NCBI GenBank assembly: GCA_001802645.1
Contig: MGZJ01000043.1
Span: 14,030 to 78,029, forward strand
Length of the DNA stretch: 64,000 nucleotides
Reading direction: 5' to 3'
From: Geobacteraceae bacterium GWC2_53_11
GTDB taxonomy: Bacteria > Desulfobacterota > Desulfuromonadia > Geobacterales > Pseudopelobacteraceae
Under the pieces are notes generated by a model. It did no database searches, was not told where the DNA came from, and was given only the letters and a program-made list of their open reading frames with translations. Position numbers and translations under genes: made by a program. Below are positions 3,881 through 27,853 of this stretch, piece after piece. The stretch's first letter is position 1; each line of letters opens with the position of its first letter.

Positions 3881-3902
3881 AAGGGACCGTTAAGGGGTTT
3901 AA

Positions 3903-4238
3903 ATGGCTGAAAGTCAGGATCATAAGTTGCCATTTGAGAAGCTTCTTGTCTGGCATTCGGCGAAGGACTTTACAATAAACATCTATGGTATAACCAAAAG
4001 TTTTCCTCCGGATGAGCGATTTGGTTTGACCAATCAGATGAATCGCGCAGCCGTTTCGGTGATGTCTAACCTCGCCGAAGGGAGTGCCCGCACGAGCAAA
4101 AAAGATCAGGCCCATTTTTCTCAGATAGCTTACAGTTCACTGATGGAAGTCGCCTGTCAAATACAACTCGCCCATGAACTTGGTTATTGTGCTCTTGAAT
4201 CATTTCAACGGATCAGGGAGCAAATTCTCGAGCTGTAG
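3903..4238 (+). CDS. S23-family four-helix-bundle protein, ends at an in-frame TAG; frame then open to 4283
   Basis: KLLVWHSAKDFTINIYGITKSFPPDERFGLTNQMNRAAVSVMSNLAEGSARTSKKDQAHFSQIAYSSLMEVACQIQLAHELGY is typical of the 23S intervening-sequence/four-helix-bundle family. Confidence 0.9.
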   Translation: MAESQDHKLPFEKLLVWHSAKDFTINIYGITKSFPPDERFGLTNQMNRAAVSVMSNLAEGSARTSKKDQAHFSQIAYSSLMEVACQIQLAHELGYCALESFQRIREQILEL

Positions 4239-4286
4239 TCAAAAATTAACGCGTTACGTCGATCACAACTAAAAGAGGTATAGATA

Positions 4287-16979: not shown

Positions 16980-17033
16980 AAGTTTTGTTGTAGTGAATTA
17001 TTTTAAGCTTTGAGGAACCAGAGGAACAACATA

Positions 17034-18008
17034 ATGGCACAAAAGAAAGCTTTGATAAGTGGCATATCGGGCCAGGATGGCGCTTACCTGGCCAAACTAT
17101 TGCTCGAAAAAGGGTATGAAGTTCATGGTACGGCACGTGACGCCCAGATGTCCACGTTTTATAATCTTCAATTAATTGGCATCAAGGATCAGATTACCTT
17201 TCATTCCATGGCGCTTAATGACTTCAGGAGTGTTTTACAGGTATTGGACAAGGTAAAACCGGACGAGATATATAACCTTGCCGGGCAGAGCTCGGTGGGT
17301 CTATCTTTCGATCAGCCGGTGGAAACGCTCGAAAGCATCAGCGTCGGAACGCTCAACCTGCTGGAGGCGATCCGTTTTACCGGAAGATCCATAAAGCTGT
17401 ACAACGCGGGTTCAAGCGAATGCTTCGGTAATACCGGCGGCCATCCGGCCGATGAAGAAACCCCCTTTCGACCCCGCAGCCCTTATGCTGTTGCCAAGGC
17501 GACAGCCTTTTGGGAAGTAGCCAATTACCGCGAGGCCTATAACCTCTTCGCCTGCACCGGAATTCTCTTCAATCATGAATCACCATTACGGCCTGAACGC
17601 TTTGTAACAAAAAAGATCGTCAAGGCAGCTTGTCGTATTGCAGCAGGAAGCAGTGAAAAACTGCATCTTGGCAATATCTCCATCGCCCGCGACTGGGGGA
17701 GTGCCGAGGAGTATGTCGAAGCGATGTGGCTGATGTTGCAGCAGGATCAGCCGGAAGACTTTGTCATCGCCACCGGTGAGACCAATACGCTGGAAGATTT
17801 TGTTGCAGCGGTGTTCGAGGCTGTTGGTTTGAATTGGTGTGAGCATGTTATCAGCGATCCGTCGCTTCTTCGCCCTTCTGAAATTATGGTAAGCAGGGGC
17901 AATCCAGCCAAGGCACTGCAAAAGTTGGGATGGCAGGCAAAACGCAAAATGCGGGATGTCATTGAGTTGATAATTGATGCTGAGCAGAAGTCGAAAATCG
18001 AGGGCTGA
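17034..18008 (+). CDS. GDP-mannose 4,6-dehydratase family protein
   Basis: ALISGISGQDGAYLAKLLLEKGYEVHGTARDAQ; NHESPLRPERFVTKKI. Confidence 0.92.
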   Translation: MAQKKALISGISGQDGAYLAKLLLEKGYEVHGTARDAQMSTFYNLQLIGIKDQITFHSMALNDFRSVLQVLDKVKPDEIYNLAGQSSVGLSFDQPVETLESISVGTLNLLEAIRFTGRSIKLYNAGSSECFGNTGGHPADEETPFRPRSPYAVAKATAFWEVANYREAYNLFACTGILFNHESPLRPERFVTKKIVKAACRIAAGSSEKLHLGNISIARDWGSAEEYVEAMWLMLQQDQPEDFVIATGETNTLEDFVAAVFEAVGLNWCEHVISDPSLLRPSEIMVSRGNPAKALQKLGWQAKRKMRDVIELIIDAEQKSKIEG

Positions 18009-18011
18009 TTC

Positions 18012-18217
18012 ACCGCAGAGTACGCGAAGAACGCAGAGGAGAACCACAGGGAGTGGACCAATTATCTGAAAAAGTCATAGGGGCTGCAATAAAGGTTCAC
18101 CGTGAAATTGATCCAGGCCAGCTTCCCTTGGTCTGATAATCAATGTTCACTCGATGGCATCAAGAGGTTAGTTCATAACTTTTAGGGATTCTCGGCGTTC
18201 TCTGCGCTCTTTGCGGT
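18012..18217 (+). repeat. internally deleted GxxExxY-unit copy A
   Basis: ACCGCAGAGTACGCGAAGAACGCAGAGG ... CGGCGTTCTCTGCGCTCTTTGCGGT ends; internal part joined at ...ATCCAGGCCAGC/TTCCCTTGG... Confidence 0.88.
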
Positions 18218-18243
18218 AAGTAAGAAGTACAAGAACAATGATA

Positions 18244-18688
18244 ACCGCAGAGTACGCGAAGAACGCAGAGGAGAACCACAGGGAGTGGACCAATTATCTG
18301 AAAAAGTCATAGGGGCTGCAATAAGGGTACACCGTGAACTAGGTCCGGGCCTTCTTGAATCGGCCTATGAAATTTGCCTTGCGTATGAACTGCAAAACGC
18401 AGGGCTGATGATTGAGATTCAAAAGCCGCTTCCCGTGGTGTATCGAGGTGTTAAGCTCGATTGTGGCTATCGGATGGACATTGTTGTTGAAGGGAAACTT
18501 GTTCTCGAATTAAAGGCGTTAGAAAAAATTCTTCCCATACACGAAGCACAACTGTTGTCATATTTAAGACTCTCAGGAATATCCCTTGGTCTGATAATAA
18601 ATTTTCACTCACAATTACTTAAAGACGGCATCAAGAGGTTAGTCCATAACTTTTAGGGTTTATCGGCGTTCTCTGCGCTCTTTGCGGT
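18244..18688 (+). mobile_element. full-length GxxExxY unit copy B (candidate mobile/repeat unit with imperfect inverted ends)
   Basis: Same ends as copies A and C; contains the complete GxxExxY ORF. Confidence 0.55.
18285..18656 (+). CDS. GxxExxY protein (PD-(D/E)XK nuclease-like)
   Basis: GPGLLESAYEICLAYEL (GxxExxY) and RMDIVVEGKLVLELKAL (D-x(n)-ExK); GTG start lies just inside the left repeat end. Confidence 0.93.
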   Translation: MDQLSEKVIGAAIRVHRELGPGLLESAYEICLAYELQNAGLMIEIQKPLPVVYRGVKLDCGYRMDIVVEGKLVLELKALEKILPIHEAQLLSYLRLSGISLGLIINFHSQLLKDGIKRLVHNF

Positions 18689-18716
18689 AAATAAGAAGTA
18701 CAAGAACAATGTGATA

Positions 18717-18931
18717 ACCGCAGAGAACGCGAAGTACGCAGAGGAGAACCACAGGGAGTAGACCAATTATCTGAAAAGTCATAGGGCTGCAATAAAGGTT
18801 CACCGTGAAATTGATCTAGGCCAGTTTCCCTTGGAATGATAATCAATTTTCACTCTCAATTACTTAAAGACGGTATCAAAAGGTTAGTCCAACATCTAGG
18901 GATTCTCGGCGTTCTCTGCGCTCTTTGCGGT
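18717..18931 (+). repeat. internally deleted GxxExxY-unit copy C
   Basis: Same ends and same deletion junction as copy A (GGCCAGT/TTCCCTTGG). Confidence 0.88.
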
Positions 18932-19105: not shown

Positions 19106-20518
19106 ATGCTGAAACAACAAGCTCGCCTTTTTACAAAAATATCCGTTCTTCTGGACGTTGCTACGCTTGTCACGGCATTCTGTCTTGCATATGTTCTCCT
19201 CCAACTTACATACGATCGGTTACAAGATATCCTCGAATATGCCTGGGCGTTGCTTATTATTCTGCCAACGTGGCTGTTACTGCTCTCCTATTCCGGCATA
19301 TATGGTTCCATGCGCACCAAACGATTCGGCGAGATATTTGGGCAGCTGTTCAAGGTCCACATGATTGGCGGCATGGTTATGACGTCTTTTATCTATATGC
19401 TGGATTCAAAGGGATTCAGCAGGATGCTCATCGGAGCGTTTATGCTCATCTCCCTTGTCCTGATGGCTACCACCAAGGCCACGGTCAAGCAGGTACTAAA
19501 ATATTTTCGTAGAAAAGGGTATAACATCCGGAATATTCTTATTGTTGGCAATGGCGAGAAGGCGCGCCACTTTGCGCAGCTTGCGCAAGATCATGCCGAC
19601 TGGGGCCTGGCTGTTATCGGCTTTATCCCCTTTTGTGATGTTAATAAAGAAGAAACAACTCAAGATTGTATAAAAATAGGTACTATTGATAGCCTGAATG
19701 ACATATGCAAGCAGAGACTGGTTGATGAAGTTGTTTTTTCGCTCCCCACTGAACAGATGCCCCTGATTGACGACCATATAGCCTCACTCCAGGAAATGGG
19801 TGTAACTGTCAGGATGGTGATTGACCTTTACGACATTCCAACGGCCCGCAAAGAAATTACCCTCTTCCATGATGAGCTTCCCATGCTTACCTTTTATGGC
19901 AAGGCGTTCGATTCTGAGCAGCTTTTTTTGAAACGCTGTCTGGATATTGTCGGCTCCCTGGTGGGGCTGTTTATCACGGGCTTGCTGCTGCCGTTTATTG
20001 CCTTGGCGATCAGAATAGAATCGAAAGGTCCGCTGTTCTTCAGCCAGAATCGCGTTGGTGAGAATGGCCGTATTTTCAAATGCTGGAAACTTCGATCCAT
20101 GTTCGTGGACGCAGAGGAGCGCAAAAAAGAACTGATGGGCCTGAACGAGATGAATGGTGCCATGTTCAAAATCAAGGATGATCCGCGGGTTACCAGGGTG
20201 GGGAAATTTATCCGCAAGACCAGTATTGATGAACTGCCGCAGTTCTGGAATGTGTTCTGCGGCGAAATGAGCCTGGTTGGCACGAGACCGCCGACGCCGG
20301 ATGAGGTGGCAACATACCAAAATTGGCACAGAAAGCGGATCTGCATCAAGCCGGGCATTACAGGCCTCTGGCAGGTGAGTGGCCGTAACCAGATAGAGGA
20401 CTTCGACGAGGTGGTCAGACTTGATATTCGTTACATTGAAGAGTGGTCGCTCTGGTTGGATATTCAGCTGCTGGCGAAAACCGTCTGGGTAGTTGTGGCA
20501 CGTCGGGGAGCTTCTTGA
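19106..20518 (+). CDS. undecaprenyl-phosphate sugar phosphotransferase (exopolysaccharide polyprenyl glycosylphosphotransferase)
   Basis: KRCLDIVGSLVGLFITGLLLPFIALAIRIESKGPLFFSQNRVGENGRIFKCWKLRSM; SLVGTRPPTPDEV. Confidence 0.95.
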   Translation: MLKQQARLFTKISVLLDVATLVTAFCLAYVLLQLTYDRLQDILEYAWALLIILPTWLLLLSYSGIYGSMRTKRFGEIFGQLFKVHMIGGMVMTSFIYMLDSKGFSRMLIGAFMLISLVLMATTKATVKQVLKYFRRKGYNIRNILIVGNGEKARHFAQLAQDHADWGLAVIGFIPFCDVNKEETTQDCIKIGTIDSLNDICKQRLVDEVVFSLPTEQMPLIDDHIASLQEMGVTVRMVIDLYDIPTARKEITLFHDELPMLTFYGKAFDSEQLFLKRCLDIVGSLVGLFITGLLLPFIALAIRIESKGPLFFSQNRVGENGRIFKCWKLRSMFVDAEERKKELMGLNEMNGAMFKIKDDPRVTRVGKFIRKTSIDELPQFWNVFCGEMSLVGTRPPTPDEVATYQNWHRKRICIKPGITGLWQVSGRNQIEDFDEVVRLDIRYIEEWSLWLDIQLLAKTVWVVVARRGAS

Positions 20519-22374: not shown

Positions 22375-22402
22375 TTGACATTATGGGCTTGTTGCATATA
22401 AT
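22375..22402 (+). promoter_or_regulatory. consensus sigma70 promoter TTGACA-16-TATAAT for the Xre/AbiEii pair
   Basis: TTGACA 22375-22380, TATAAT 22397-22402; overlaps inverted repeat GCATATAATG...CATTATGC. Confidence 0.75.
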
Positions 22403-22412
22403 GGGAAGCATT

Positions 22413-22904
22413 ATGCCAGCTAAAGCACCTATCACCACCTGCATTACTGCAAACCAGCTGATTGCTCTGGGGCAGCAGATTCGCGCTCATCGCAAGGCAC
22501 TACGAATAAGCGCCACCACGGCAGCGGAAGCTGCGGGCATGTCGCGGGTAACTGTGCACCGCATCGAAAAAGGCGAACCGGCCGTGACCATGGGAGCCTA
22601 CGTGAATGCCATGGCAGCGCTGGGCTTGAACTTCGGACTGGTTGCGCCTGCTGAGTCGATCGAATCGCATGATGCAGTGAACCGGGAAGGGTGGATACCC
22701 GCGCGCATTCGCTTGATGGATTATCCTCAGCTGAAGCTACTCGCCTGGCAGGTGCAGGGTGCGGTGACCTTGTCACCCGCGGAGGCTTGGGGCATCTACG
22801 ATCGCAATTGGCGTCACATGGACGAACAAGCCCTTACGGTGCATGAACGGCAACTTATCGATGCGTTGCGTTTGGCGTTTGGGGGTGGTGATAGCCATGT
22901 TTGA
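22413..22904 (+). CDS. Xre-family HTH antitoxin partner of an AbiEii-like toxin
   Basis: IRAHRKALRISATTAAEAAGMSRVTVHRIEKGEPAVTMGAYVNAMAALG; start chosen downstream of the promoter. Confidence 0.85.
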   Translation: MPAKAPITTCITANQLIALGQQIRAHRKALRISATTAAEAAGMSRVTVHRIEKGEPAVTMGAYVNAMAALGLNFGLVAPAESIESHDAVNREGWIPARIRLMDYPQLKLLAWQVQGAVTLSPAEAWGIYDRNWRHMDEQALTVHERQLIDALRLAFGGGDSHV

Positions 22905-23607
22905 GCGTCCGCTCCACCAACGCATTGCCAAGGTTCTCGGTGCCTTGAATGGGGCACTGTTGAAAGAGCACAGTTGCCTGTTCGGTGGCGGAACGGTGAT
23001 TGCGCTCCGCTTTGGCGAGTACCGCGAGTCAGTTGACATCGACTTTTTGCTGTCGGATATGACCCACTACCGAAGCTTGCGTCAATTGCTGACAGGCACT
23101 GATGCTATCAACGCCATTTTACTGCCCGGGCAGCCGCCCTTGACGCAGTTGCGCGACATAAGGGCTGATCAATATGGCATCCGTACAATGCTCTCGGTGG
23201 CCGGTCAGCCTATTAAATTCGAGATCATCCTGGAAGGGCGCATCGAACTGGCCGCTCCAACAGCGAAGGATGTGGTCTGTGGCATTCCCACTCTGACGGT
23301 TCTGGACATGGCGGTGAGTAAGCTCTTGGCGAATTCCGACCGTTGGGCCGACGACGGGGTTTTTAGTCGAGATGTGATTGATCTGGCTATGATGCAGACC
23401 AGATTGCCCTTGTTGCGCCAGGCCATTACCAAAGCCGAGGATGCTTATGGGCAAGCTATCCGCGTTGATTTGGAAAAAGCAATTCACCGGCTTCAGCAGC
23501 GTCAAGGCTGGCTTGAACGCTGCATGCAGACGATGGCCATGACGCTTCCGAAAGCGCTGGTCTGGCAGCGGGTGCGTAATTTGCACAAGGCTTTGTCAGC
23601 AAGCTAA
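22897..23607 (+). CDS. nucleotidyltransferase, AbiEii/AbiGii toxin family
   Basis: LFGGGTVIALRFGEYRESVDIDFLL (GG..T..S.DID); overlaps the Xre stop by 8 bp. Confidence 0.88.
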   Translation: MFERPLHQRIAKVLGALNGALLKEHSCLFGGGTVIALRFGEYRESVDIDFLLSDMTHYRSLRQLLTGTDAINAILLPGQPPLTQLRDIRADQYGIRTMLSVAGQPIKFEIILEGRIELAAPTAKDVVCGIPTLTVLDMAVSKLLANSDRWADDGVFSRDVIDLAMMQTRLPLLRQAITKAEDAYGQAIRVDLEKAIHRLQQRQGWLERCMQTMAMTLPKALVWQRVRNLHKALSAS

Positions 23608-27708: not shown

Positions 27709-27853
27709 GAAATTTTGAATTTTGGATTATGAATTTTGAATAATAAAAGGGAACAGTATTCCTTTAACTGCACTTCAGTAATACCTCTGTCGGCGTGTGT
27801 CGGCGGTAAGCCCATGAAAAATCCAAAATCCAGAATTCATAATTCAAAATTAG
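27709..27853. repeat. inverted pair of ATTCANA-type arrays around the VanZ start
   Basis: aattttgaattttggattatgaattttgaataat (27711-27744) versus aaaatccaaaatccagaattcataattcaaaattag (27818-27853). Confidence 0.75.

Follow-up and report, generated by a model that had tools for sequence, protein, structure and literature searches.

A GxxExxY nuclease gene between modular inverted repeats: evidence for a family of small, probably mobile bacterial elements

A small gene enclosed by inverted repeats, with a gene-less copy of the same unit on either side, raises the question of whether the unit is a mobile element and, if so, what moves it. Such an arrangement is present in the 64-kb stretch of DNA analyzed here (referred to below as the window), in which three units, designated A, B, and C, are flanked by a sugar-nucleotide dehydratase-like gene (17010-18008) and a sugar-transferase (glycosyltransferase)-like gene (19106-20518) of a polysaccharide-type cluster. 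The first-pass annotation of the window had interpreted A and C as a deletion derivative of B that propagated as a lineage of its own, with the enclosed putative nuclease as the candidate mobility function. We therefore consider the array itself, the wider family to which its gene belongs, and the explanations that can account for both.

The array and its gene

The three units form a real array in which they follow one another on the forward strand: A at 18012..18217, the full-length B at 18244..18690 (447 bp), and C at 18717..18931. The left end, expressed as a 27-base pattern, has three matches in the 64 kb, at 18012, 18244, and 18717, compared to an expectation of 0 from 100 shuffles, and the right end TCGGCGTTCTCTGCGCTCTTTGCGGTAA is the terminus of each unit. 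The left terminal repeat of B (18244..18271, forward strand) is composed of three 9-bp modules, CGCAGAGTA/CGCGAAGAA/CGCAGAGGA. The right terminal repeat (18663..18690, reverse strand) had been called an imperfect inverse of the left, and it matches at 20 of 26 positions, a score that none of 2000 shuffles equaled. Between the two repeats lies the GxxExxY gene (18285..18656, forward strand), which begins with GTG and encodes 123 amino acids.

Units A and C resemble B with one common internal deletion of roughly 220 bp; the ORF core is absent from both, and both carry the junction GGCCAG(C/T)TTCCCTTGG. A, which has kept both terminal repeats, has a second, small deletion. Neither unit retains the capacity to encode GxxExxY: A reads VDQLSEKVIGAAIKVHREIDPGQLPLV followed by a stop codon, and C is frameshifted and no longer has the GTG start. 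The spacer AAGAAGTACAAGAACAATG between A and B (18218..18243) is present again between B and C (18691..18716). These features had all been reported from the sequence by eye and were reproduced here. The further statement that A and C are closer to each other than to B was correct next to the deletion, where about 6 sites are common to A and C against B, and did not apply to the first ~75 bp, where A resembles B and not C; the array is thus a mosaic. Elsewhere in the window (22383-23607), a helix-turn-helix gene overlaps a nucleotidyltransferase-like gene, by eye possibly a toxin-antitoxin pair.

The B protein is a complete member of the GxxExxY family, matching TIGR04256 across the entire profile (positions 1-116 of 116; 149.8 bits, cut-off 35; E=3.7e-44) and PF13366 (PDDEXK_3; 142.7 bits, cut-off 22; E=8.3e-42). 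In 39 homologues, E25, D65, E75-x-K77, and Q89 are among the invariant residues and Y93 is nearly invariant, which corresponds to the E/D/ExK/QxxxY motifs shared by Cas4 and lambda exonuclease. An AlphaFold model of the protein (pLDDT 94.6) has as its best solved matches in Foldseek SSO0001 (Cas4 family), the Cas4 protein Pcal_0546, LHK exonuclease, and lambda exonuclease, at probabilities of 0.91-1.00 and with moderate E-values (3e-3 to 2.5e-2). The earlier suggestion of a PD-(D/E)XK-like ORF is therefore borne out by the fold, and from the fold and the conserved catalytic residues together we predict that B encodes a minimal Cas4/lambda-exonuclease-like PD-(D/E)XK nuclease. The values of dN/dS for the gene, 0.03-0.23, indicate that it is under purifying selection.

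A transposase fold was not matched by the model, and the sole gene of the unit falls, as a nuclease, outside the known classes of transposases and recombinases; a PDB sequence search with the B protein returned no match. GxxExxY proteins are common: of 297 genomes sampled from across the phylum, 112 have at least one. We considered and rejected a phage origin, given that tblastn found no match in 50,697 phage records and that no PHROGs family was found; a search of plasmids gave 7 weak matches. Assignment to a defense system was likewise rejected, as PADLOC offered no family for B and only weak Cas4 matches for one relative.

Matching ends, gene-less units, and occupied sites

A check proposed in the first-pass annotation was whether GxxExxY genes as a rule lie between such ends; inverted repeats do enclose them systematically. 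At 85 loci, drawn from this genome and from 33 relatives within its order, the sequence upstream of the gene was aligned with the inverse of the sequence downstream of the same gene. The median score was 36, compared to 17 for shuffled flanks, and 75 of the 85 loci reached the 99th percentile of the shuffled scores, compared to 18% of mismatched left/right pairs assembled from different elements. In other phyla 46 of 54 GxxExxY loci passed, compared to 25% of mismatched pairs, and the controls were largely negative (2/61 for ORFs of the window, 2/23 for epimerase genes). GxxExxY loci, B included, thus have the terminal inverted repeats of a transposable element. Each repeat is typically built of three modules of 8-10 bp, as in CACGGAG-A-CACGGAG-G-CACGGAG, CGCAGAGTACGCGAAGAACGCAGAG (this window), CACGAAAAGCACGAAA, and ACGCAACGACGCAACG.

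The two repeats of one element are alike, whereas those of different elements in the same genome are not, and the same holds in other phyla; pairs of elements from one genome have repeats no more similar than those of other pairs. When elements at different loci are compared, their repeats become less alike as the proteins diverge (Mantel r=-0.38, 0/2000 permutations), a co-variation that could be mere linkage. Left/right identity is 0.89 inside elements, compared to 0.63-0.69 among homologous elements at the epimerase site described below, and in a trio from the four-genome family f2 the repeats are 98-100% identical despite a synonymous gene divergence of about 0.5. Both observations point to selection acting on the two ends jointly, although conversion between the ends would also produce such agreement.

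Units with ends of the same kind and no gene are dispersed in the genome, so the relationship between gene-bearing and ORF-less units that had been proposed does hold in general. We counted them in 1.12 Mb of the genome that carries the array (61 stretches, some picked because they hold GxxExxY copies), with block-shuffled sequence as the control. The sample contains 52 inverted pairs, compared to 6 in the control, and 23 pairs with periodic arms, compared to 0. Most of the periodic pairs are gene-less, 72-190 bp long, and built of the same module types as the gene-bearing copies of the genome. There are three cases in this genome of one unit nested within another.

A comparison of ORF-less copies with the presence of the gene, also suggested at the outset, gave a clear difference. 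Where GxxExxY is present (34 genomes), triplets of two module patterns average 11.8 per genome, compared to 0.4 in the 5 genomes that lack it (p=0.01), and triplet number correlates with GxxExxY copy number (rank correlation 0.52, 39 genomes), p-values here being optimistic because the 39 genomes are akin. One genome, G021, has 16 triplets of period 9, yet no GxxExxY copy with that repeat was seen in it.

Several features of the gene-less units are recorded here as separate observations. In order-level relatives, many combine two repeat classes in a concentric arrangement; L310, L313, L314, L317, L320, L321, and L332, all of family f2, have CACGGAG modules outside and CAGGGAT/ACAGGAT modules inside. 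Many ORF-less units carry AAAACGGCAnTT outside the modules on one side, and the motif [AG]GCA.TT occurs at 17 of 118 ends of such units, compared to 1.1 in shuffles; this sequence may belong to the element itself or to the target. Contig C79 of the genome under study has several CACAGAG-type units within 12 kb.

A site both with and without a unit, the signature that had been sought in relatives, was found between the genes for methylmalonyl-CoA mutase and epimerase. In several congeners this intergenic gap is 39-51 bp and empty, for example AAACAAT^AGAAAGG in G043; in G013, the sister of G043, it holds a GxxExxY unit of ~450 bp (AAACAATC-[unit]-AAAAAGG), and in G047 a gene-less unit of ~110 bp. 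Of the 29 sites that could be read, 12 in congeners hold a GxxExxY unit, whether complete or broken, and one holds an ORF-less unit. On a host tree of 35 genomes built from flanking proteins, the state of the site has changed at least 8 times; 3 of these changes are forced by well-supported branches, the tree being poorly resolved in parts. The GxxExxY proteins at this site belong to several lineages at odds with the host tree; those of G052 and G023 differ, although both genomes fall in the same well-supported host clade. This history fits a preferred site at which units were repeatedly inserted, lost, or replaced, although an exchange of the region between strains may have contributed the same pattern.

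Related elements at different loci allow the limits of the unit to be read from homology. In the clearest pairs, homology breaks off at the repeats or close to them. For L008/L073, the alignment covers the unit only and ends no more than 4 bp from the repeats; for L063/L074, L069/L056, and L043/L063, it stops close to the repeats at most ends. Ragged ends in some pairs are due to neighboring units that blur the boundary call. At orthologous loci, by comparison, the alignment continues past the repeats. Homology bounded in this way was found for relatives of B and not for B itself. No target-site duplication was recognized by eye in the flanks of GxxExxY or ORF-less units. Some known elements make none.

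What may move the units

On balance, we favor the interpretation that B belongs, as a full-length copy, to a widespread family of mobile mini-elements of ~450 bp, whose nuclease probably acts on modules of its own class. Such an element would consist of one gene, GxxExxY, and two enclosing terminal inverted repeats particular to that element, each with about three modules of 8-10 bp. Its nuclease would probably recognize and cut at modules of its own class, would act also on ORF-less units with matching ends, and would leave host repair or replication to finish the move. The mobility of the family is well supported, if indirectly, by the genomic comparisons above, in which the movement of a unit was not itself observed. 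From these patterns we infer the role of the nuclease as the mobility enzyme, its reading of the modules, and the manner in which strands are joined. A nuclease that moves its own class of units is the most economical reading, and a second class of units, those with PF05635 genes, is a real argument for caution.

In these genomes PF05635 genes (S23, encoding a four-helix bundle) also lie within inverted repeats, here mostly of 7-bp modules, and 19 of 21 score at least 23 in the flank alignment. The module length agrees with that of the heptamers, GACAGAT, before the S23 gene of Coxiella (PMC4990558). Since PF05635 proteins are not nucleases, a nuclease is not required for the architecture. Two features of the window belong to this class: an ORF-less unit at 27711-27851, whose inverted arms, 28 bp each, consist of 7-bp modules (AATTTTGAATTTTGGATTATG) of the PF05635-gene type, and a PF05635 gene at 3902-4250, which has an in-frame TAG near its C-terminus and around which a clear inverted repeat is absent.

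The PF05635 units are accordingly one reason to consider that a mobile unit carries GxxExxY as a passenger, perhaps a nuclease of DNA repair or defense, with the repeats recognized by an enzyme of the host or of another element. The presence of repeats without a matching gene copy in G021 agrees with this, as does a CACAGAG-type unit of the genome under study (L233:10361-10659, contig C79) in which the place of GxxExxY is taken by another small, zinc-ribbon-like ORF that has two CxxC pairs. We nevertheless judge a passenger role to be rather unlikely, because GxxExxY is the gene repeatedly met inside units of 8-10-bp modules, because triplets are nearly absent from the five genomes that lack it, and because a transposase gene was seen in none of the units examined.

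Paired repeats of this kind have been described before in a different light. In Geobacter metallireducens, 21 pairs of sites on opposite strands, each site with three TCTCCGTS[Y] repeats in tandem and the distance within a pair varying, were reported and recognition by IHF/HU was suggested (Aklujkar et al. 2009, PMC2700814). These class 2 sites (of classes 1-3) are nearly the CACGGAG repeat seen here, and in the part of that paper available to us they are given as predicted global regulator sites, with no link to GxxExxY or to mobility. If the repeats were chromosomal binding sites for regulatory or nucleoid proteins, the enclosed genes would be there by chance. This seems to us very improbable, as binding sites would not explain why the two repeats of an element match while those of other elements in the genome differ from them, nor the nested units, the empty and filled sites, the homology bounded by repeats, and the strong tie to one gene family.

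Selection for an RNA stem around the gene, kept for RNA processing as in the 23S rRNA intervening sequences that PF05635 (S23-type) genes with heptamer repeats form, and of which the Coxiella element is cut out of the RNA by RNase III (PMC4990558), was rejected as highly improbable: mismatches between left and right repeats show no excess of G-U over A-C (83 vs 75, p=0.58), ORF-less units occur in many unrelated places, and no credible Rfam match was found, the sole one being a sub-threshold microRNA family.

The history of A and C is a separate matter, and here the proposal that the deletion derivative spread as its own lineage was not upheld. Within the 4.28-Mb genome, the DNA of B had no matches outside A, B, and C, and the nearest sequence among 38 congeners was 67% identical; dispersed copies of B were found in neither. 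Likewise, A and C have no copy elsewhere in their own genome, where they are confined to the array and lack the dispersed copies expected of a MITE, and no close copy in the 38 congeners. The empty site of the array was not found in the 39 genomes checked because the flanking genes are not kept together in congeners. The protein closest to that of B (82% identical) is from an uncultured Geobacter genome (L235), at another locus and with a different flanking repeat; at this locus (L235:1930-2440) both repeat arms hold an inserted AGCGAAGCGAACGGGCGG stretch that breaks up the usual module block.

One could suppose that a deletion copy arose once and inserted twice beside B as an independent non-autonomous element, which would account for the junction that A and C share and would parallel the dispersed ORF-less units of other classes. 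The absence of such copies elsewhere, the spacer common to both sides, and the mosaic of B-like and C-like sequence in A make this scarcely credible, and the same three facts are explained by tandem duplication with conversion or unequal exchange. A single internal deletion, with later tandem duplication and conversion in the array, would suffice to make A and C local derivatives, and nothing in their sequences requires that either of them jumped.

Beyond the array, it is possible, and we advance the idea tentatively, that these units represent a new class of bacterial transposable element. In such a class the nuclease would be the only element protein, would read class-specific modules, and would mobilize both itself and gene-less copies; ends and protein would co-evolve, giving rise to many repeat classes per genome, and the S23/PF05635 units would be a parallel. 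Were this so, many unexplained short repeats of environmental bacteria, some of them listed as regulatory sites, would receive a single explanation. The GxxExxY family, so far annotated by sequence motif only, would gain its first functional hypothesis, one that is directly testable, and the mobility enzyme would be related to Cas4 and unlike known transposases.

Relation to known systems

In the open-licence literature, a body to which subscription journals mostly do not belong, we found no paper that ties GxxExxY to such repeats. The 23S rRNA intervening sequences (S23/PF05635) are similar in being units of ~430 bp with one small gene, inverted ends, and short tandem modules before the gene, and mobility was once proposed for them. 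They differ in their unrelated four-helix-bundle protein, in their 7-bp modules, and in that the rRNA cases are processed as RNA. B is not such a sequence, given its dehydratase-like and glycosyltransferase-like neighbors and its PF13366 protein.

The Cas4/lambda exonuclease family has the same fold and the same motifs (E, D, ExK, QxxxY) as GxxExxY, which is half the size of these proteins and stands alone in repeat-bounded units; in addition, iron-sulfur cysteines were not seen in the B protein. Cas4 is a nuclease of CRISPR spacer acquisition, and the relatives of lambda exonuclease digest DNA ends and do not transpose. With MITE-like pairs of gene-less and gene-bearing units, the present elements have in common short, dispersed ORF-less units with terminal inverted repeats and a gene-bearing unit with the same ends. 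They are distinguished by a Cas4/lambda-exonuclease-like nuclease in place of a known transposase, by repeats made of tandem modules, and by the lack of a visible target duplication. The Chunjie MITE of Geobacter uraniireducens is said to be such a short element and may be a related unit. Finally, in REPIN/RAYT systems, short palindromic repeats are mobilized in trans by a single chromosomal gene, as is proposed here for the ORF-less units; the RAYT protein is an HUH transposase, unlike the PD-(D/E)XK fold of GxxExxY.
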